Assembly: GCA_003963305.1 (NCBI GenBank)
Contig: RXJR01000001.1
Span: 62,001-126,000 of the forward strand
Origin: Candidatus Melainabacteria bacterium
Lineage (GTDB): Bacteria; Cyanobacteriota; Vampirovibrionia; Obscuribacterales; Obscuribacteraceae
Direction of reading: 5' to 3'
DNA: 64,000 nucleotides
The notes below the pieces were generated by a model. That model made no database searches, was not told where the DNA came from, and worked only from the letters and a program-made list of their open reading frames with translations. Each line of letters begins with the position of its first letter. Position 1 is the stretch's first letter. The translations under genes were made by a program, and so were the position numbers. This document shows positions 33,121 to 42,697 of the stretch, one piece after another.

Positions 33121-33402
33121 TCAGTCGCCAGCTTCGCTAAAAAAACCTTCATCCTCGAACTCTTTGACCAGACCTGAGACTTCTTGCTCGAGCGTCGGTC
33201 TGCTACCCACTTCCGGGATTGCTTTCAAATTCGAAACAATTTCTTCTACAGAATTTTCTCCATCGCAAAACTCCCAGACAAGGGCGCCTAGCGGACTGAG
33301 CGTGTGAGCCCATGAAGTCTTTTTATTGACGAGAATGACCATGCCATCCGGCAAGGAGGTCGACTCCATTTCTTGGCTGCGTTTTGGTTTCGTGATATTC
33401 AT
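33121..33402 (-). CDS. PqqD-family protein (RiPP recognition element fold)
   Basis: A 93-residue protein with the PqqD winged-helix pattern: MVILVNKKTSWAHTLSPLGA, then LVWEFCDGENSVEEIVSNL, and TLEQEVSGLVKEFEDEGFFS. The 'N..g..vW...dG..t..ei' core is diagnostic. PqqD proteins bind the leader of a ribosomal peptide and deliver it to a modifying enzyme. Here it is 42 bases downstream of the phosphatase-fold gene and in the same operon as the ATP-grasp ligase and the candidate precursor. The N-terminus has a basic KPKRSQ stretch. The start ATG lacks a strong Shine-Dalgarno, so translation may be coupled. Confidence 0.85.
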   Translation of the reverse strand: MNITKPKRSQEMESTSLPDGMVILVNKKTSWAHTLSPLGALVWEFCDGENSVEEIVSNLKAIPEVGSRPTLEQEVSGLVKEFEDEGFFSEAGD

Positions 33403-33444
33403 TGGTTATCAAATCGCCGACAGTATCTACATCTGGTCATTATC

Positions 33445-34734
33445 TCAAGCGATCAATAATGATGCCAGATCTGGTGCGTTCATATTGTTACGCTCCGATT
33501 TCTTCGAAATCAACGCAAACCCAGTAGCGCTGTGGGTTGTGAGTGGCATCACTGGCACTGCTGCTCGACTAAGATTTTCGAATTCGACCCCGTCAATCTT
33601 TACAATCAAATCTGGTGCAGAGCTTTTATTCACGTCTTCAGGGTGAACCGCAATTGAAAATCTGCTGCCGAAGCGCGTCATAAGAAAATCAGTCAAATAA
33701 TCCGCGACGGCTGTACGCACCTTCTTGTATTCGGCATCGGAGACGATGCCATCTTCAAAAACGCTACTCTTATTCACATAAACACATCCTGAAACAGGAG
33801 ATGCAGCCACAGTAGACGATGTCCGCAAGCACCCCTCCAGTGTCTTAAAGTAATGAGTGGACGGTTGCCACAAAGCCGCCGCGACCCGAGAACGATCGCT
33901 TCGACTGCGGGCTAACTCTTCTTCGCTTGCCAACTCAAGGAAGCCGCCGCTCTCTAAAACGAGATTCAAGTTGAGCGTGGACTTACAAGACTGATGAGAA
34001 TAACAACTGACCAATGCAAAGTTCACAGGCTGATATTTCAAAAAGAGAACCACAGCTTCGTCCAGAGCTGTCAAGAATTTCTGCAAAGCAGGAAATACAG
34101 CCAAACTATCTGCAGCTAAATATCTCAAACCTAACAAATGAAAAAGCTGATCGAAAACGGTAAGTCGATAGACAAATTTCGACCAGTCCTTTCTCTCGAA
34201 CAAACTTACCGCGCATGCCAAGCGATCCATCTCAACTTCCAGACATCGCTCAACCAGCTGCGATTGGGGAAGTGTCATCGCACCGGCATGAGATTTATAG
34301 GGTCTTGGCTGGTAGTCATGAAAGATTTGCTCTTTACGCAAAGATGCCGGACTGACCGACTTGTTTGTTGACAACGAGCCATCCGACAACCAGACTCTGC
34401 TTTCATCATCTGGGCGCAATATAGGAACATTGATCGATACAGCCCTGGAGCCTGGTTCGACCTCAATGAGAGCTGGCTTGACCAGAAAGTCCGGCTCAGA
34501 GAAGACAGCCAGATTATTCAAAGACGAAACCGGATGTGCGTAGCCCGCACATCCGTTATAAAAGACACTTTTTCCGGTTAGTAACTCGCCCCAGACTAGC
34601 TGAGCGGCAGGAGCAGACAAGGAAAGCTGCAAAACAGCCAGCTTGTCAATCAACTTCTTACTGTGAGGTAAATGAGCAACTAGCGATGGGAGATCAGCCT
34701 CTGACAATCCATCGAAAGCAAGCATGCATAGCAT
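33445..34734 (-). CDS. Degenerate alkaline-phosphatase-superfamily (type I phosphodiesterase-like) protein
   Basis: A 429-residue protein with the AP-superfamily core order. The first metal Asp is in MLCMLAFDGLSEADLP (Asp8). The nucleophile region APAAQLVWGELLTGKS has Ala where Thr/Ser is expected ten residues before the TG. A D..fH metal pair survives in VFDQLFHLLGLRYL. The usual SDHG becomes CYSHQS before TLNLNLVLESGGFLEL. The last His is in LTTHSATGFALISK. The fold is therefore likely kept but catalysis may be lost. It begins nine bases after the peptide gene. It could be a substrate-binding or partner subunit of the modification system. Confidence 0.65.
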   Translation of the reverse strand: MLCMLAFDGLSEADLPSLVAHLPHSKKLIDKLAVLQLSLSAPAAQLVWGELLTGKSVFYNGCAGYAHPVSSLNNLAVFSEPDFLVKPALIEVEPGSRAVSINVPILRPDDESRVWLSDGSLSTNKSVSPASLRKEQIFHDYQPRPYKSHAGAMTLPQSQLVERCLEVEMDRLACAVSLFERKDWSKFVYRLTVFDQLFHLLGLRYLAADSLAVFPALQKFLTALDEAVVLFLKYQPVNFALVSCYSHQSCKSTLNLNLVLESGGFLELASEEELARSRSDRSRVAAALWQPSTHYFKTLEGCLRTSSTVAASPVSGCVYVNKSSVFEDGIVSDAEYKKVRTAVADYLTDFLMTRFGSRFSIAVHPEDVNKSSAPDLIVKIDGVEFENLSRAAVPVMPLTTHSATGFALISKKSERNNMNAPDLASLLIA

Positions 34735-34743
34735 CGAACAATG

Positions 34744-35070
34744 CTACAGGCAGAAATTTCCTAGCGCAGTATCAGTGCCACCGGAGCATGTCGATTGAAG
34801 ACCCGTGTTGACGTTACATTGAACGTAAAGGTTTGGTCTTCCACCACCGAGGTCAATAACGGTGTCTGCACCGCCCTGAGTGGTTCCTGCACCAACTACG
34901 CAGCTGGAAGCACCAGCGAATGCAGGTGGAACGAGAAACTTGTCTAGTATCTTAGGCGCAGCCAACAACCCGCCTGTCAACGCAGCGCCCTTTACTACTC
35001 GCGTAATAAATTCTGCTCTGGTCAATGATTGCTCACACGAGCTTGCTTGGGAATCAAATTCTTCAGTCAT
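34744..35070 (-). CDS. Candidate modified-peptide precursor: exported Cys-containing peptide
   Basis: A 108-residue protein. Residues 1-20 are acidic and polar; residues 22-52 look like an export signal (TRAEFITRVVKGAAL, then LVPPAFA) with probable cleavage after Ala52. It resembles a Tat signal but lacks the second arginine. The 56-residue mature part has Cys57, Cys85, Cys95 and Cys107. It has only three Asp (69, 73, 100), no Glu, no Lys and one Arg. The motif GGxDT occurs twice (66-70 and 97-101). TTAGGAATAGTC precedes the ATG, so AGGA is well placed. It sits between the ATP-grasp and phosphatase-fold genes. I infer a substrate role from context; no known precursor family is recognised. Confidence 0.75.
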   Translation of the reverse strand: MTEEFDSQASSCEQSLTRAEFITRVVKGAALTGGLLAAPKILDKFLVPPAFAGASSCVVGAGTTQGGADTVIDLGGGRPNLYVQCNVNTGLQSTCSGGTDTALGNFCL

Positions 35071-35216
35071 GACTATTCCTAACTTCTTGAACTGGTAAAC
35101 GACTTTTTCTTGAACAAAACAACTTCAGCATTGTAGTGGCTACTAAATGTTCCTGCAAGGTACGTTGAGAAAGATACTGTTTCCAAGCGCAAAATCAGCG
35201 AAGGTTCAGGCTCACC

Positions 35217-36224
35217 TCAATTGACAAGTGGATCGATACTGCCGGCAAGCAATCGAGCTACGGCCAGGGAAATTGGCTGCTGGGTTCGCACCTCGATCCA
35301 CATATACTGGCCGCCGCAGTTTATTTCAAGAAATATGTATTGCCCTTCCTCAGTCAGAATCAAATCGATCGCGCCATAGTTGAGTCCAAGCCTTTTTGTC
35401 AGCAATAGACATTGATCGGATATCTCTTTCGGCAAACTGAATGCCTCAATGGCTACCGAGTAATCGTGCCTCCAATCAACTTTTCCACGACCAGACTGAG
35501 AGTCGATTCTGGTACCAAAAACTTCGCTTCCAACAACGGTTACGCGTATGTCATACGCTTTTTGAACACATCTTTGAAACATGTGTGGTGACAATGAAAC
35601 CTGCTCAAGGTGCGGTAAATCCTCATGACGCAGTGGCAGTGTTGAAACGCCACGAGGATTTTCATTGGCTGGAATAGCTAAATTCGTTTGTTCACCCATG
35701 AGCTTATAAATGACCTGACCACTGCACCTGTCGAAAAATTCACGCACCAAATGCGGTTTGTTCGTCACCAGAGTTTCAGGAATTGTGAAGCCCATTTTCT
35801 GAGCCATTTGTAACTGCCACAGCTTGTCTGCACATGCCAGGTTATTGGCTGGAGCATTTACCCAGAGACAATTCAGTGAGCGAAAGATACCGTCAACAGC
35901 GCTGCGAGCTTCGCTTTCAACCATCTTGCCAATCCAGGGCTCGAAGAAATGGGGGGCTCGCACCGCCCCGGGTCTTCGATACCAGATCGAGGAATATGCA
36001 TGCAAATCGAAGTCCTTGTCCGGCTTTGCGAAACTGCAAACCGGATTTCCGGTGCCTATTTCAAAGGTGATGTCAGCAGTCTCAATCAAGTCATTGAGCT
36101 TGAGAAAATCCACACCCACCTTCATGGACAATAAGATTTCATTGACCTTCTGAGCGTGTTTATCATCTGTAGAAGAAAGGATCAAAACCTTCATTATTTG
36201 TTTGCTTGCGACTTCAAATCGCAA
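35217..36224 (-). CDS. ATP-grasp ligase of the graspetide (MvdD/TgmB-like) family
   Basis: A 335-residue ATP-grasp enzyme. The N-terminal part KVLILSSTDDKHAQKVNEIL, the SSIWYRRPGAVRAP motif, the nucleotide-binding DIRVTVVGSEVFGTRIDSQS with VDWRHDY, and the metal-binding end LGLNYGAIDLIL then YIFLEINCGGQYMWIE match ligases such as MvdD. Those enzymes form ester or amide cross-links between side chains of a ribosomal peptide. The usual NPxGQ is NCGGQ here. The TTG start at 36224 is supported by AAAGG seven bases upstream; ATG 36194 has none. It is four bases after the small Cys-rich gene and 146 bases before the peptide gene. Confidence 0.88.
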   Translation of the reverse strand: MRFEVASKQIMKVLILSSTDDKHAQKVNEILLSMKVGVDFLKLNDLIETADITFEIGTGNPVCSFAKPDKDFDLHAYSSIWYRRPGAVRAPHFFEPWIGKMVESEARSAVDGIFRSLNCLWVNAPANNLACADKLWQLQMAQKMGFTIPETLVTNKPHLVREFFDRCSGQVIYKLMGEQTNLAIPANENPRGVSTLPLRHEDLPHLEQVSLSPHMFQRCVQKAYDIRVTVVGSEVFGTRIDSQSGRGKVDWRHDYSVAIEAFSLPKEISDQCLLLTKRLGLNYGAIDLILTEEGQYIFLEINCGGQYMWIEVRTQQPISLAVARLLAGSIDPLVN

Positions 36225-36228
36225 ACGA

Positions 36229-36447
36229 TCACCTTTCTAAATCACAGACCAAATGTGTCAACGTTTGCAGCATCGCAAATCGGGTCTGAATGCAATGACC
36301 ACAAGGGATGTGTAGATTCGCCGGCCAGGCCGAATTCAAGATTCTCGAAGCCTGCTCGATCTCGAAGCCACCAGGCGCGCAGGAAAAATGGCACCGAATC
36401 CGCAAGTTCGGCTCTGCGAACGCAATCGCTTCGTACAGAGTTTTCAT
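36229..36447 (-). CDS. Small Cys-rich protein upstream of the ATP-grasp gene
   Basis: A 72-residue frame with cysteines spaced like a metal-binding site: RCHFSC (C-x3-C, residues 19 and 23) and PCGHC (C-x2-C, 49 and 52), plus Cys68. The stop is four bases before the TTG of the ATP-grasp gene, and the ligase's Shine-Dalgarno lies inside its last codons. That is strong evidence for coupling. No family is recognised. It might be a zinc-binding accessory protein, or less likely a second peptide substrate. A competing frame at 36242-36460 looks less protein-like. Confidence 0.5.
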   Translation of the reverse strand: MKTLYEAIAFAEPNLRIRCHFSCAPGGFEIEQASRILNSAWPANLHIPCGHCIQTRFAMLQTLTHLVCDLER

Positions 36448-36648
36448 TCACATCTGACATTAGAGCAGTGCCTATGTTCTTTCGCCGGATGCAAAGTATA
36501 CATCATAATACTTTAACTCCCGAACTCGTGCTTCAGCAGACATCTTCAGAGCTTACCGGAGAGTGGTCAAGACCAAGCTTAGACCCAACTAAAATGTATG
36601 CAATTCCTAATTGGTTAGAATGACGCCAACCGAGCATGGAGTATCGCG

Positions 36649-37452
36649 ATGAGCTTGCAGACTGGAGAATCATCTCCCGCGACAAAGCAAATCTACCACC
36701 TGGGCGACGCCGTTTTCACCTTGAAGAACTGCGATGCGACGTTTTTACAAACAGTAGAGAAGATATTGCCCCATTTCACTGGTGATCCCTCAAGCCACCC
36801 TGAAATAGAGGAGATCAATACCGGTTGCACGAAAGAAATTCTTGACTTAATCCGCCATGTTGCCAGCCTGCATCAAAAACAAAAATACGTCTGGATTGAA
36901 GCAAGTTGTTTGCTGACGCCAACAGGAAAAAAAGTGCTGATCGCAGGCAAGTCGCAATCAGGAAAAAGTACCACTGCTCTGGCACTTAGCCTTGGGAAAC
37001 GATGGTCGATACTGGCTGAAAACCTCTGCTTGATCAACTACGACTCCAGACGCGTTCTAAAGCATCTAGCGCCGGCCGCTCTGGATGAAAAGGCTCTGGA
37101 AGTCTTACTGACCCAGGGAGTTTCGCCTGAACGCACCTACTCTCTAGAATGGCGGAAAAATAGAGTCTGGGCACCAGTACTCGACGTCATCGGAGAGCGG
37201 ACATTCGATCCCAATTTTGATTTAGCCATCTGGCTTGAAAGAGATGACCAGGCTGACTCGTCCTTCTCCGTCAACCCGATAAGTAGCGGCGAATTCGCAC
37301 GCAAGGCGCTGACTGTCTCGAATTTGCTCAAAATCAAAGGGTCTTCCGATTCATTTTTTGATTCGATTGCACAAGCGAAGTGCCTGACCGTTACTGGAGG
37401 AGAACTCAATCAACGCCTGGATACGATCACCGGCGCAGTTTCTTCTACTTAA
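36649..37452 (+). CDS. HprK-like P-loop kinase, copy 1 (divergent active site)
   Basis: A 267-residue protein of the HPr-kinase-related fold. After an N-terminal domain of about 80 residues (IYHLGDAVFTLKNCD), the P-loop is VLIAGKSQSGKSTTALALSL (about 101-120). The following acidic motif, AED or ADD in the other three copies, is AEN here (SILAENLCLINYD), so one metal-binding acid is lost. The family C-terminus TVSNLLKIKG and GGELNQRLD is present. GGAG precedes the ATG. No HPr protein is in the window, so the substrate may be the local peptide or a sugar. It is divergent from the peptide operon. Confidence 0.82.
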   Translation: MSLQTGESSPATKQIYHLGDAVFTLKNCDATFLQTVEKILPHFTGDPSSHPEIEEINTGCTKEILDLIRHVASLHQKQKYVWIEASCLLTPTGKKVLIAGKSQSGKSTTALALSLGKRWSILAENLCLINYDSRRVLKHLAPAALDEKALEVLLTQGVSPERTYSLEWRKNRVWAPVLDVIGERTFDPNFDLAIWLERDDQADSSFSVNPISSGEFARKALTVSNLLKIKGSSDSFFDSIAQAKCLTVTGGELNQRLDTITGAVSST

Positions 37453-37475
37453 GAAACAGTTCTGCGGCTGGACGC

Positions 37476-38960
37476 TCAAAAACCCGGTTTTGTAGACCAC
37501 CATTGTTGACCTAACGTGCGGCGGACAAATCCTGCGGGCAGAAGGAGCACATACCAGTGCATAAGCAAGTAACGCAGATAATCAATCAGGCGCATAGGGT
37601 CCCGAGAATTCAGCGAAGCAGCGTCATCACTGACAGAAGAACCGCTTTGACCCTTGCCATAATAAGCAGACAAAAATTCTGCAGATGGCAGGATTGAGCG
37701 GCTCAATAAATCAAACTTTCGCTTCCGGTCAGCAGATACACTTGCGTTCAAAAGCATCATCGGCAAGCTCGTTGAGTTCCAGACAAAGGCAGGCTCGATT
37801 GTGAAGCTAAATAAAGTGGTGAATACTGATTCTCGAGGAGCCAGTTCGCGCAGCACTGAATCTGGTATCGGGGTGTGCAATCGATCAGCTGCGATTCGCA
37901 ATGAAACCCAGGCGGCAACGCTAACTGACTCGGTTTTGCAGATGGCGACAAAGCGCTGCCACGACCCAGGTGTTTGGTTCAATGACATCGTTAACATGTG
38001 AATATCAAGCAACGTTCTCCAGGTCTTGAACCTATTTTTTGCAAAATTGCAAACCATTATGACCAGATGATCAGGACGTGACGGACCCAGATAGCTCGTG
38101 CCAAGACAGGCTGCTTTCTCAGCCTCGGCAAACATTCTGTCGAACTCGATCGCTTGCACTCCACGTTCGAAGGGTCCGACTTTTATATCAACTAGCCCAC
38201 CATCAGATTGCCTGTTCATGGTGATTGCTCCGGTTGGTATCCAGCCTGGTAAGGGCACCCTGATCACGTCGAACGGCCGGTTGACGGGACCGACGCCCAA
38301 CTGGTTGCAATAAGCAGGAGAATGAAAAGAAGTAAATCCTGCACTACGCAAGCTTTCTACAAATGGCTCCAACTGGGAAGGTTCAACTATCACATCAAGA
38401 TCACCAAAATGTCTGAAGTACGCCGGTTCATACACAGTACGCGATAAATGCGCACCCTTCACCCACAGCGCGTGATCGCGAAAATCGCTTGTCACACTCA
38501 AGACGCGGGAAAATTTCTGCTCAAGTTGATAATGATTGGATGCATTCACCATTGACATTCTTCGTATTGAATCCAGCGCTTCGGCGATCGAAGGCTCATT
38601 GCTGCGCTGAAACTCTTGCAGAAGCCCTAGTTTCACCAATCTCTCGTAAATTATGCAGGCTAACGACTCGATGCGAACCAGTTCGGCAAGCGCTTCGCAG
38701 ACGGTCTTCAAATCATCCTTACCAGCGAAAATCGCCTGAGCAGCAGCACAATCATCTCGAAGCAAGGCCGCGAAAAGTCTCTCAGCCGCCGACAATTGTT
38801 CGAGAGTTTTGATGTGAGTGAACTCATTCGAAAAGCCGAGAGAACGCACCCAAAACTTAGTCAGATCGGGTCCAAAATTTTCGATATGCAGAAGAGCTGT
38901 GTCCATGCTATTTGACTTGGCAAAACCATTCAGGATACCATTTCTCAAGAAGTTGCTCAT
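37476..38960 (-). CDS. NTP_transf_5-like nucleotidyltransferase
   Basis: A 494-residue protein of the uncharacterised nucleotidyltransferase family often found with HprK-like and PqqD-like genes. The core is ALWVKGAHLSRTVYEPAYFR, then HFGDLDVIVEPSQLEPFVES, where DLD is the metal-binding DxD of the pol-beta fold. The N-terminal 140 residues and the C-terminal 200 are helical and include LVIMVCNFAKNRFKTWRTLLD. It is convergent with HprK copy 1 (23-base gap). Its ATG (38958-38960) overlaps the ATG of the divergent HprK copy 2 by two bases; ATG 38906 is an alternative start. Confidence 0.82.
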   Translation of the reverse strand: MSNFLRNGILNGFAKSNSMDTALLHIENFGPDLTKFWVRSLGFSNEFTHIKTLEQLSAAERLFAALLRDDCAAAQAIFAGKDDLKTVCEALAELVRIESLACIIYERLVKLGLLQEFQRSNEPSIAEALDSIRRMSMVNASNHYQLEQKFSRVLSVTSDFRDHALWVKGAHLSRTVYEPAYFRHFGDLDVIVEPSQLEPFVESLRSAGFTSFHSPAYCNQLGVGPVNRPFDVIRVPLPGWIPTGAITMNRQSDGGLVDIKVGPFERGVQAIEFDRMFAEAEKAACLGTSYLGPSRPDHLVIMVCNFAKNRFKTWRTLLDIHMLTMSLNQTPGSWQRFVAICKTESVSVAAWVSLRIAADRLHTPIPDSVLRELAPRESVFTTLFSFTIEPAFVWNSTSLPMMLLNASVSADRKRKFDLLSRSILPSAEFLSAYYGKGQSGSSVSDDAASLNSRDPMRLIDYLRYLLMHWYVLLLPAGFVRRTLGQQWWSTKPGF

Positions 38961-39786
38961 GCATCAACAACAGGACAAAGCGAATATTCCAACTTACCAG
39001 CTGGGGCAGGTCAAATTCGCTGTCACTAATTGTGATGAACTTCTGGAACAGGAATTACGAAGCTGCCTGCCGATTTGTCGCGTAGCTACTGCAGAAAACA
39101 CGACCTTCTATGATGCAAAAAGCGATTCGATCAAAAACATCGTTGATTTGATCAATCACATTCACAAGCGCCATGAAGGAACGCTATGGATACTGGGCGC
39201 CGGTATCGTCTCACCTTCTGGGCGGAAACTACTGATTGCCGGACCATCTCATACGGGCAAAAGCACGACAGCTATGGCACTCGTCTTCGGTTTTGGGTGG
39301 AAGGTGCTGTCCGAAGACATCACACATATAGACATAACCGAAAACGAGATAATAAATTTCGCATCACCATTTGCAGTGAAACGAGGCACTTTGTCCAGCA
39401 TTCAAAATGCTCTAAAAGCATTCGATAAGACATTGGATCTGAGCTCATTCGATACGAGCTCCGTCAAACCTACATGCTGGGCACCTCTCGAAAATGCCAG
39501 TACGGGGTGCAACCTCAGCACGCCTTTCGACCATGCTGTTGTCTTCGAGCAATTCGACGACCACGATCTAAGATGCGATCACCTGACAAGCCTCGATTAC
39601 ATGAGAGCCCTCTTGCCGATATCGAATATCGCCCGACTCAGCCAGGTGTCTAACAAGTTTTACAACTATGTTGCAGAAGATAGTTGTTATCGACTGGCTG
39701 GAGGAAATTTGAAACAAAGACTGGATAGAATAATTCAACTTTGTGACGAGCCTGCCGTAAGAGACAAACAAAATGAACTGTCCTGA
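38959..39786 (+). CDS. HprK-like P-loop kinase, copy 2
   Basis: A 275-residue paralog. The start MHQQQDKANIPTYQLGQVKF is chosen by alignment to the other copies, which all begin just before a Y-x-L-G motif. The P-loop is LLIAGPSHTGKSTTAMALVF (about 92-111), followed by VLSEDITHIDITENEIINF with the SED acidic pair, and FAVKRGTLSSIQNALKA. The C-terminus has PISNIARLS and GGNLKQRLD. The frame is open further upstream but would overlap the nucleotidyltransferase N-terminus on the other strand. Its stop overlaps the start of copy 3 by 14 bases. Confidence 0.85.
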   Translation: MHQQQDKANIPTYQLGQVKFAVTNCDELLEQELRSCLPICRVATAENTTFYDAKSDSIKNIVDLINHIHKRHEGTLWILGAGIVSPSGRKLLIAGPSHTGKSTTAMALVFGFGWKVLSEDITHIDITENEIINFASPFAVKRGTLSSIQNALKAFDKTLDLSSFDTSSVKPTCWAPLENASTGCNLSTPFDHAVVFEQFDDHDLRCDHLTSLDYMRALLPISNIARLSQVSNKFYNYVAEDSCYRLAGGNLKQRLDRIIQLCDEPAVRDKQNELS

Positions 39787-40516
39787 CAAATCCAAGTCAA
39801 CACCTGTATACAAACTTGGTCGCATATCATTTGCAGTAGAAGGGTGCAATCAATCGTTTCGAACAGAACTGGACACTTTGCTGCCCCAAAGCGAAGAGCA
39901 GGCACAAGAAATTGTTCAAAGCCCGAGTACACTTCGTACTTTGCAAAATCAAATCTACGAAATGCATGACGATTGCCTGTGGATGGATGCTGGTTGCTTA
40001 CTCACTCCTGACGGAAAGAAAGTGCTGATTATCGGCCGGTCAGGTGCAGGAAAAAGCACTACAACAATGGCGCTGGCGCTGGCTTACGACTGGAAAGTAC
40101 TGGCCGAAGACATACTGTTGATTGATTACACAAAAGATATTCTTATCACTTTTGGTGCACCTTTTTCACTCAAGCCAGGCACACTGGAATTGCTTCAAGA
40201 CTCAATAGGTCGAGTGCCAGAGCCAATCATCAATGGAGAATGGTCTCCGCTGGGACCTATGGTGGCACCACGCGATTTGAAAGCGCATTTCGATGTCTCT
40301 TTAGTCTTTACTCGAGATCGCGAACACCCTTCACATAAAATCACTGAGCTGTCACCGGCAGAATTCTTACGAAAATGCCTGCCTGTATCAAACGTGCTGC
40401 GAATGAAAGGCGCCGGAGAAAAGTTGCTCGAGTACGTCAGCAAGGGCGTTTGTGTCGAAATTGCGGACGGAACTGTGCAAGAGCGTATCAATAAGATATT
40501 GGAATTAGTTAGCTAA
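39773..40516 (+). CDS. HprK-like P-loop kinase, copy 3
   Basis: A 247-residue paralog. It begins with VYKLGRISFAVEGCNQSF; the P-loop is VLIIGRSGAGKSTTTMALAL (about 88-107), then WKVLAEDILLIDYTKDILI with an intact AED motif and SLKPGTLELLQDSIG. The C-terminal block PVSNVLRMKGAGEKLLEYVS is the family end motif. The 14-base overlap with copy 2 indicates one transcript. It is convergent with the thioredoxin gene, overlapping it by 12 bases. Of the four copies it has the most canonical GxxGxGKST loop. Confidence 0.87.
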   Translation: MNCPDKSKSTPVYKLGRISFAVEGCNQSFRTELDTLLPQSEEQAQEIVQSPSTLRTLQNQIYEMHDDCLWMDAGCLLTPDGKKVLIIGRSGAGKSTTTMALALAYDWKVLAEDILLIDYTKDILITFGAPFSLKPGTLELLQDSIGRVPEPIINGEWSPLGPMVAPRDLKAHFDVSLVFTRDREHPSHKITELSPAEFLRKCLPVSNVLRMKGAGEKLLEYVSKGVCVEIADGTVQERINKILELVS

Positions 40517-41797
40517 CTTCAACGCGCTGCTCAAATCTTGTGTCAAAATCTCACGCAAATCGGACGGACATCCGACATGCACAGACTTCACCTTTCCGTC
40601 TTTTCCAACAACTACCGTCTGGGGTATACCAACCACATGATAGAGAGCGGCGACCTGGCCTTTTGCATCAAGACCAACTTGACTGGTCAAAGAATTCTTT
40701 TGAAGAAAAGACTTAATTACTGATGCGTCCTCCTTCTGATTCAGCGCAATAAACTGAACACCTTGCCCGGCAAAATCTCCGCATACCCGATCGATAACTG
40801 GCATGGCGCGACAGCACGGGCTACACCAGGTGGCCCAGAACTCTATGACAACAACCTTGCCGCGAAGTTTGGAAAGACTGAAGTTGGCACCATTAACGGT
40901 ACCAACTTCAAATTTAGGAGCCGACTTACCAACCAGTGTCTGCCTGGCATCATTAGCGGATGAGAAAACCAACTGAGAAACTTTCAGGGCGCCCGCCGGT
41001 GGCTTGAATTTCCGTCCATGGGAGCTTGCCTGCCGTCGTCTAAAGTTTGTGTATGTGAATGTTCTGGTCATTGCTGTTTTCGCGGCTGTCTCCACAACAG
41101 GCAATGTTACTAGAGGACAATTCTCTTCAGGACGATAGACCCTAATCCAGGGCTGTTTACCTGCAGTCAGATAATAGTGCTCAGCGCATGAGGCACCCTT
41201 TCTCCTCAAGACCAGATGATGGCAGCTGACACCATCTACAGTGTCAAGCCCCTTATAGCTTTCGATACTCCGACTTTTCATCAATTCAGAATAGGGATCG
41301 TCGGCGGTTAAAACCTCCAACAACGCTGCTTTCAGGGCGCCGTCCGTCACACATCCGAAGTCCTGATCCTTTACAAACTCGTTTATATTGGACAAATTCC
41401 GCGTTGAATAAACTCGCCATTCGGGTTTATAGAACGAAGCGTTTGAATCAATTAATGTCGCTTCTCCCGCTCGTTTGGGACGCCGCGTTTTTACTCTAAA
41501 GTAGGGTGCTCGCTCAAATTGAAGATCGGCAACATCGATCTTATCGGTTACCTTGTCAGTGGTCTTCAGATTCAAATCTGACGTTATTCGGAAAGAGAAC
41601 GCCTGGAGACTTCTATAAAAGGCACAAGTTTCGCGCAGTACTCGCTCGGCTATTGCCGCGTCAGATTCTGTACTCGCAGACATCGTTGACGAGTTAGACG
41701 TAGGCTCTGTCGCGCTGAAAGCTGCAGCAATTTTCGCGCCTGAGCTGCACTGCAGCAATAACGCAACCAACATTACAAGACAGAAGCGAGTTCTCAT
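40505..41797 (-). CDS. Exported DUF2092-like / TlpA-type thioredoxin two-domain protein
   Basis: A 430-residue exported protein. The signal peptide starts MRTRFCLVMLVALLLQ. Residues about 45-270 resemble DUF2092 periplasmic domains (AFYRSLQAFSFRITSDL, then YKGLDTVDGVSCHHLVLR). The C-terminal domain from about 290 is TlpA/AhpC-like with VVVIEFWATWCSPCCRAMP, giving the redox CSPC motif, and a cis-Pro loop GIPQTVVVGKDG. It probably handles disulfides or redox in the periplasm. I set the start at ATG 41797, which gives the signal peptide, although the frame is open to 41998. It might act on the Cys-containing peptide of this locus. Confidence 0.85.
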   Translation of the reverse strand: MRTRFCLVMLVALLLQCSSGAKIAAAFSATEPTSNSSTMSASTESDAAIAERVLRETCAFYRSLQAFSFRITSDLNLKTTDKVTDKIDVADLQFERAPYFRVKTRRPKRAGEATLIDSNASFYKPEWRVYSTRNLSNINEFVKDQDFGCVTDGALKAALLEVLTADDPYSELMKSRSIESYKGLDTVDGVSCHHLVLRRKGASCAEHYYLTAGKQPWIRVYRPEENCPLVTLPVVETAAKTAMTRTFTYTNFRRRQASSHGRKFKPPAGALKVSQLVFSSANDARQTLVGKSAPKFEVGTVNGANFSLSKLRGKVVVIEFWATWCSPCCRAMPVIDRVCGDFAGQGVQFIALNQKEDASVIKSFLQKNSLTSQVGLDAKGQVAALYHVVGIPQTVVVGKDGKVKSVHVGCPSDLREILTQDLSSALKLAN

Positions 41798-41822
41798 ATC
41801 TAATATTTTGTTTCCGAAAACA

Positions 41823-41880
41823 AGCAAATCATCAGAAAGCAGATTTGCTCCAAAGAGTAAAAAGCTTATCATTGGAGCAA
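41823..41880. promoter_or_regulatory. Two overlapping inverted repeats between the thioredoxin and HprK copy 4 genes
   Basis: AGCAAATC (41823-41830) pairs with GATTTGCT (41842-41849). TTGCTCCAA (41845-41853) pairs with TTGGAGCAA (41872-41880). The two perfect repeats share TTGCT, so only one hairpin can form at a time. They lie in the 141-base divergent region, nearer the thioredoxin gene. They could be an operator pair or an attenuator in the thioredoxin leader. Confidence 0.45.
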
Positions 41881-41938
41881 GAAGCTGGAGCAAAAAATCA
41901 ATGCAAGAATTGATTTCAACAATCAAAGGTATGTACAC

Positions 41939-42697
41939 ATGAACTCGGCTAAGCCAATCTACCGATTGGGCCACACCAGTTTTTCGCTCTCTCATCAAGA
42001 TTCTGAGTTCGAACGTGTCGTTAGCAGACTCTTTATCTCTGGCGCGCCGGCTAATTCAGTCGAAACCGAAATCATCGATGTACAGATGGGTTTGTCGCTT
42101 GATGTCGGAGAATGCATGCAACAGTTGATTGCCAGGCATCGAGATTGCTTGTTCATTCAAGCTGCCTGCCTGAGTTCCCCTGACGGTCTAACGGTCTTGC
42201 TGGCGGGCGAATTTGGCAGTGGGAAGACGACAATGACACTGGCACTGGCTTTAGGATACGGATGGAAGGTAATTGCAGACGATTTGCTACTCGTTGATAC
42301 CGTCAAGGAACGGCTTATCAGCCTGGCAGCACCTTGCAAGTTAGCCGACGGTGTTCGCCAACAACTTAGCTGCGCCGGAGTCCAATTGCCTGGATTCATT
42401 TTGCGAGAATGGTACCCACTCTCAAGGACTCACATAGCCGACGACTGCACTGCCGAATTCGACATCGCCGTCTATTTAGATAAACCTGATTGCAAGCCAT
42501 TCTCGTGGGCAGCATGCACGCCTTCTGAATTCACTCGCAAAGTTCTTCCAATATCAAATTTGCTGCAGCTGCGAGGAACGAATACTTTCGTCAATTACCT
42601 GCCGGAGAATTGGTGCTATACCACAGGCGGTGGCAATCTCAAGGAGCGCCTCTCCGCATTATTAGAGTTGTGCCGGGAAGCTCACAGTAAGGAATAG
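41939..42697 (+). CDS. HprK-like P-loop kinase, copy 4
   Basis: A 252-residue paralog starting MNSAKPIYRLGHTSFSLSH. The P-loop is VLLAGEFGSGKTTMTLALAL (about 84-103) with GKT instead of GKS. It is followed by WKVIADDLLLVDTVKERLI, where ADD matches the catalytic acidic pair of true HPr kinases. The end motifs PISNLLQLRG and GGNLKERLS are present. It is separated from copies 2 and 3 by the oppositely oriented thioredoxin gene. The propeller-like gene begins about 30 bases downstream, so both probably share a transcript. Confidence 0.86.
   Translation: MNSAKPIYRLGHTSFSLSHQDSEFERVVSRLFISGAPANSVETEIIDVQMGLSLDVGECMQQLIARHRDCLFIQAACLSSPDGLTVLLAGEFGSGKTTMTLALALGYGWKVIADDLLLVDTVKERLISLAAPCKLADGVRQQLSCAGVQLPGFILREWYPLSRTHIADDCTAEFDIAVYLDKPDCKPFSWAACTPSEFTRKVLPISNLLQLRGTNTFVNYLPENWCYTTGGGNLKERLSALLELCREAHSKE

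Follow-up and report, generated by a model that had tools for sequence, protein, structure and literature searches.

A predicted graspetide precursor-ligase pair linked to an exported-peptide gene set in exopolysaccharide loci of Candidatus Obscuribacterales

The DNA analysed here (the window) is a stretch of 64,000 nucleotides from a Candidatus Melainabacteria bacterium of the Obscuribacteraceae (GenBank assembly GCA_003963305.1, contig RXJR01000001.1, positions 62,001 to 126,000), and the genes considered lie between positions 33121 and 36460 of it. An earlier reading, made from the sequence alone and referred to as the sequence-only reading, had placed a peptide-modification operon here. 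The same-strand genes that it listed for a PqqD-family protein, an alkaline phosphatase (AP)-like protein, a small exported-looking peptide (PEP) and an ATP-grasp ligase, separated by 42, 9 and 146 bases, are confirmed. The gene next to the ligase encodes a 72-residue peptide that is a candidate graspetide precursor, and the features of this gene set (the cassette) are as follows.

33121 to 33402, minus strand: PqqD-family leader-binding protein (RiPP recognition element, RRE; RiPP, ribosomally synthesized and post-translationally modified peptide); PF05402, 40.1 bits, cut-off 23.4
33445 to 34734, minus strand: nucleotide pyrophosphatase/phosphodiesterase (NPP)/phosphonoacetate-hydrolase-fold (AP-like) protein; PF01663 in relatives, AlphaFold model with a pLDDT (predicted local distance difference test) of 85 and Z 22 to 1ei6
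34744 to 35070, minus strand: small exported-looking peptide PEP, 108 aa; TRxEF motif, hydrophobic segment, A-x-A site and variable tail
34915 to 35022, minus strand: signal/anchor-like segment of PEP, residues 17-52, ending in PPAFA, from the alignment
35217 to 36224, probable ATG start at 36194, minus strand: ATP-grasp graspetide synthetase, MvdD/MdnC-like; NCBIfam matches, 5ig9 match and model
36242 to 36460, minus strand: candidate graspetide precursor, 72 residues; 16 loci, third-position substitutions, leader and core motifs
36377 to 36391, minus strand: leader recognition motif PFFLR of the 72-residue peptide, residues 24-28; compare PFFARFL of microviridin
36272 to 36313, minus strand: predicted core T50...S58-D59-P60-x-C62-D63, with T50 and S58 as donors and D59 and D63 as acceptors, from conservation

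The assignment of the ligase to the graspetide type was borne out by its matches to the MvdD, MvdC and GRASP_SAV_5884-like families of NCBIfam (E values of 2e-72 and 7e-60), which stay below the equivalog cut-offs of MvdD and MvdC (203 of 475 bits for MvdD). In Pfam, both PF21068 (28.2 bits) and PF08443 (25.9 bits) score above cut-off. MdnC (PDB entry 5ig9) is matched with an E value of 1e-39 in a HMMER alignment and is also the structure closest to the ligase model (pLDDT 89; Z 32.2, root-mean-square deviation 2.2, 304 aligned), with other graspetide synthetases at Z 27-32 and RimK at 23. An MvdD pre-ATP-grasp domain and a RimK-like ATP-grasp domain in an MdnC-type fold are what characterizes a graspetide synthetase. 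The ATP/Mg ligands K124, K164, D277, E290 and N292 are invariant in 15 relatives. Asp192, which is invariant in the clade and stands at the start of a helix in the model, aligns with the leader-binding Asp of MdnC (HMMER, 5ig9).

In the sequence-only reading, the gene beside the ligase had been taken as a Cys-rich protein in the frame 36229-36447. This frame was rejected as an out-of-frame reading on the basis of the codon-position pattern and its interruptions in relatives. Compared with a same-genus relative (ligase 66 % identical), the overlapping frame 36242-36460 has 15, 7 and 32 substitutions at codon positions 1, 2 and 3, respectively, whereas the frame 36229-36447 has 11, 35 and 18, with the changes concentrated at position 2. 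The former is open in all relatives tested and the latter is broken in several. The conserved product contains two Cys and hence is not Cys-rich.

All aligned copies of the 72-residue peptide contain the pattern P-F-[FILV]-[LV]-[RK]-x-W, with P24, F25 and W30 invariant and R28 found in 14 of 15 (Lys in the remaining one). Graspetide leaders share a general Phh motif (PMC8939145), and the microviridin leader PFFARFL anchors on MdnC via Glu191, Asp192 and Asn195, which contact the leader Arg (PMC7823629). Judged by sequence, the conserved pattern appears to be the counterpart of that leader, and the PFFLR helix would dock on the ligase via the helix that bears Asp192. In the core, D59, P60 and C62 are found in all 15 copies, S58 and D63 each in 14, and T or S at position 50 in 13. 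The adjacent peptide thus has a leader motif of the Phh/PFFxR type and a C-terminal Ser/Thr plus Asp/Glu core, as in known graspetide systems. As the T...S-D...D order of the core matches the one in marinostatin and microviridin, two ester rings are predicted, in which the ligase would join T50 and S58 to D59 and D63 to give a bicyclic product lighter by 36 Da; this pairing of ring partners is an inference. Alternatively, the 72-residue peptide could serve as a small adaptor or activator, bound to the ligase in trans via PFFxR, with the substrate of the ligase elsewhere (PEP, a protein or a polysaccharide-linked amine). This would suit the nearly invariant SDPxCD, which resembles a folded adaptor or a metal or thiol site, and microviridin ligases can be activated in trans by leader peptides (PMC7823629). 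However, the donor and acceptor residues of a graspetide are present in the microviridin order, and S58 and D63 are lost together, in L072 (L numbers denote the loci compared), which is the only aligned peptide lacking S58 and the only one lacking D63. We therefore regard an adaptor as unlikely.

Within one Candidatus Obscuribacterales (Melainabacteria) family, 11 of 50 genomes carry the 72-residue peptide, at 16 loci in all, and every one of these loci adjoins a ligase, save one at a contig end. Of the 15 ligases in the clade, 14 have the peptide within approximately 1.5 kb, often overlapping or 0-50 bases away, and the one without it sits less than 2 kb from a contig end. There is one ligase per cassette, and the cassette-bearing ligases form a single clade (support 0.999). 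On sufficiently long contigs, the NPP-fold protein and PEP accompany the peptide/ligase pair, and PqqD nearly always does. A second copy of the cassette lies approximately 44 kb upstream in the genome of the window (L063). Among 386 genomes of the phylum searched, matches to the 72-residue peptide outside the family were marginal (E values of 0.003-0.007) and were taken as noise.

Inspection of gene neighbourhoods, which the sequence-only reading had proposed, revealed a set kept at 15-16 loci, spread over several genera within a single family, a recurrence that is far beyond chance. That reading had also named ligase homologs found consistently without the peptide and PqqD genes as evidence against it. 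Such homologs occur at 69 loci outside Obscuribacterales, and within the ligase's own clade the partners are consistently present. The 69 loci are those of the next-best ligases from other phyla, located by a profile scan with the ligase alignment, and the partner families are absent around them except for a marginal kinase-profile match (E value of 0.009). Small neighbouring open reading frames with a P-hydrophobic-hydrophobic motif were checked at the outside ligases L104-L135, and none resembles the 72-residue precursor. It is true that gene order and strand vary among the cassettes and that intergenic distances are sometimes large, as would be expected if the genes were unrelated neighbours at a polysaccharide locus with no shared function. 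However, given the recurrence of the set in several genera and the absence of the partners around other ligases, this is scarcely credible. The cassette is missing around the more distant ligases at L086, L087, L088, L089, L090 and L092, which come from the same family and class.

The sequence-only reading had made PEP the partner of the ligase, a role that passes to the 72-residue PFFxR peptide. PEP is represented by 30 copies in 15 of the 50 family genomes and comprises a TRxEF/SRKEF motif, a hydrophobic segment and an A-x-A site, followed by a tail of 6 to more than 50 residues that in most pairs is less conserved than the signal-like part. (The window-L064 signal value was left out of this comparison, as it arises artificially from an upstream extension of the L064 frame.) The N-terminus weakly matches Rieske PetC/Tat-type signals (TIGR01409, E value of 0.017 in 2 of 28). 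No copy contains the twin arginine of a Tat substrate; there is a single R, in R-x-x-F. PEP was rejected as a general substrate of the ligase because about half of its copies lack the ligase cassette and the tails at four ligase loci (L073, L075, L076 and L078) contain no Asp or Glu. The same observations weigh against the possibility that PEP is itself the graspetide precursor, presented to the ligase by PqqD. The genes are adjacent, the tail of the window copy has Thr/Ser and Asp, and leader binding is known for PqqD proteins. However, the tail is hypervariable and it is the other peptide that combines a PFFxR leader with a fixed T/S-D core, making PEP a very improbable precursor.

PqqD is found beside nearly every copy of PEP, and usually an HprK-like kinase or a PF14907 nucleotidyltransferase is there too. 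The ligase-free copies at L079-L083, L085 and L091 are beside PqqD and an HprK-like kinase, with PF14907 in three. PEP is thus a candidate substrate for the uncharacterized PqqD-HprK-PF14907 gene set. PEP genes form arrays of three at L082 (9281-10174) and L079 (6831-7642), where PqqD and an HprK-like kinase adjoin them and a ligase is absent. The PEP at L080 (9907-10278) has a Pro/Thr repeat tail (PAPTPAPP...) and adjoins a PMT_2 glycosyltransferase and a 2-oxoglutarate (2OG)-oxygenase/cupin protein. The Thr- or Pro/Thr-rich tails at L079 and L080, the latter beside the PMT_2 protein, are compatible with glycosylation.

The kinases and nucleotidyltransferase that the sequence-only reading had reported do lie directly beyond the cassette, as follows.

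36649 to 37452, plus strand: HprK-like kinase paralog 1 (HK1), TIGR04352-related, 20 bits
37476 to 38960, minus strand: PF14907 nucleotidyltransferase with the active-site motif GDLDV, E value of 3e-20
38818 to 39786, plus strand: HprK-like kinase paralog 2 (HK2), TIGR04352, 29.5 bits
39773 to 40516, plus strand: HprK-like kinase paralog 3 (HK3), TIGR04352, 24.7 bits
41939 to 42697, plus strand: HprK-like kinase paralog 4 (HK4), TIGR04352, 29.2 bits

The four kinase paralogs are spread over approximately 6 kb (36649-42697), with a thioredoxin-like DUF2092 protein (40505-41998) between them. The catalytic motif of HprK-like kinases is His-Lys-Asp-Asp (PMC9266682), and three of the four paralogs keep His-Lys-(Asp/Glu)-Asp, with H/K/DD in HK4 and H/K/ED in HK2 and HK3. 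Pseudomycoidin is a lasso peptide that an HprK homolog phosphorylates, and the addition of hexose to the phosphate requires a nucleotidyltransferase homolog (PMC8498205, PMC9266682). By analogy with this lasso-cluster chemistry, a phospho-/nucleotidyl- or glyco-modification is proposed for PEP. PqqD would carry PEP to the HprK-like kinase and the PF14907 nucleotidyltransferase, which would phosphorylate its tail and then nucleotidylate or glycosylate it, either ahead of export or in the course of it.

In the loci examined, the NPP-fold protein occurred only together with the ligase module (the L069 copy is at a contig end, with the ligase out of view), and it would belong to that module. The AP fold proposed for it holds, as its relatives score as PF01663 above cut-off (best E value of 1.7e-11) and its AlphaFold model matches phosphonoacetate hydrolase 1ei6 (Z 22.0, root-mean-square deviation 4.0, 331 aligned) as well as NPPs. 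In the AlphaFold alignment D8, D195, H199 and H401 are invariant. Judged by spacing, the window protein has neither Thr nor Ser at positions 42-44, where the nucleophile is expected (3 of 15 have Thr at 44), and Ser-His takes the place of the usual Asp-His pair. With an active site that is likely altered, to judge from these residues, a binding or transferase partner is more likely than an ordinary phosphatase.

The exopolysaccharide setting was also described correctly. Family 1 glycosyltransferases, a Wzy-type O-antigen ligase, a flippase and a glycosyl hydrolase flank the set in the window, and related loci also carry sugar transferases and nucleotide-sugar synthesis genes. We conclude that, by those sequence and fold criteria that could be applied, these exopolysaccharide loci hold a new, lineage-restricted graspetide group, joined to an exported-peptide module of the PqqD/HprK/PF14907 type. 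It is probable that two linked peptide-modification modules are present, one a predicted graspetide precursor and ligase and the other a modified exported peptide. This would bring two predicted RiPP chemistries, ATP-grasp cross-linking and HprK/PF14907 phospho-tailoring, together at one locus. The setting also raises the question of peptides in a surface polymer versus secreted inhibitors. The tie of the cassette to the polysaccharide comes from genomic context, and attachment is put forward as a hypothesis. A peptide-polysaccharide conjugate, in which PEP, its Ser/Thr-containing tail bearing phosphate together with a nucleotidyl or glycosyl group, would prime or anchor the exopolysaccharide, with the cross-linked 72-residue peptide as a dedicated assembly component, is a rather improbable extension of it.

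Several observations weigh against this two-module interpretation. The HprK-like paralogs score only 20-29.5 bits and are not HPr-rel-A kinases by the TIGR04352 cut-off of 200, HK1 is degenerate (H/K/EN, with the second catalytic Asp replaced by Asn), and the cassette copies L063 and L065 have no kinase nearby. The C-termini of PEP have no conserved final Ser, which is the residue phosphorylated by characterized lasso kinases. Neither a GG site nor a protease or dedicated transporter could be recognized, and none of the neighbours scanned around the cassettes is a transporter. Finally, the core motif T-x7-S-D-P-x-C-D is nearly fixed across several genera, which is unusual for a diversifying graspetide and would also suit a small adaptor protein.

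A variant compatible with the two-module interpretation is that cross-linking yields not a secreted inhibitor but a fixed molecule, cofactor-like or structural, which would have a functional Cys62 and serve in polysaccharide assembly. A near-invariant core that includes C62 recalls the constant cores of PQQ-type RiPPs, and the scanned surroundings contain polysaccharide genes and no recognized exporter or protease gene. However, we are not aware of any cofactor that an ATP-grasp graspetide synthetase produces, and this wholly inferential variant is possible but doubtful.

Among described systems, the nearest is microviridin/marinostatin (graspetide group 1; MdnA-MdnC), which has in common the PFFxR leader helix, the MdnC-like ligase, Asp192 and the core order T...S-D...acidic. 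The group 1 core motif of microviridin is TxKxPSD followed by acidic residues. The core found here, T-x7-SDPxCD, differs in its wider spacing, a conserved Cys and the lack of Lys and of TxKxPSD, and hence is not a group 1 core. The locus also differs in that no MdnB lactam ligase, GNAT or ABC transporter was seen, and in its exopolysaccharide setting with PqqD, HprK-like kinase, PF14907 and NPP-fold proteins. The lasso tailoring systems of pseudomycoidin and paeninodin also have a small peptide beside a PqqD-family protein, an HprK homolog and a nucleotidyltransferase. However, no lasso cyclase or B2 protease was seen here, the peptide N-terminus is signal/anchor-like, there is no conserved C-terminal Ser and the context is exopolysaccharide. 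HPr-rel-A (NCBIfam TIGR04352) also pairs an HprK-related kinase with a PqqD-family protein, and differs in the scores noted above (20-30 bits here). The SynChlorMet (Scm) cassette has homologs in PqqD (ScmD) and the HprK-like ScmC, with scores well under the cut-offs (22.9 of 100 and 13.8 of 125 bits). Rosaritide and corallotide, partner-protein-dependent graspetides (PMC13097080), likewise have synthetases with strictly co-occurring extra proteins. The partners there are a peptidyl-prolyl isomerase (PPIase)-like protein or a 2OG oxygenase, and the main text of that paper makes no mention of PqqD, an HprK kinase, a nucleotidyltransferase or a phosphatase.

The view that no graspetide system of this composition has been described agrees with the literature searched, which contained no description of the gene set; the supplementary tables of graspetide surveys, where the family might figure as an unnamed group, lie outside that search. 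Nor did the literature searched contain anything relevant on the HprK-related/PF14907 names, Melainabacteria graspetides or Obscuribacterales biosynthetic gene clusters. The locus offers a precursor and a ligase that can be tested together, with a new core motif, in the Melainabacteria, which are little-studied, non-photosynthetic relatives of cyanobacteria.

Two further proteins were found near the cassettes. In relatives of several genera the ligase adjoins a very large protein of 1418-1656 aa (L074:11483-16453, L075:4671-8927 and L077:2-2314, with 771 aa visible in L077), and neither of the two full-length copies matches a Pfam family at the thresholds applied. A protein of 808-821 aa with a weak spermine-synthase-like domain is present at L072:3166-5631, L073:12505-14952 and L078:3212-5638.

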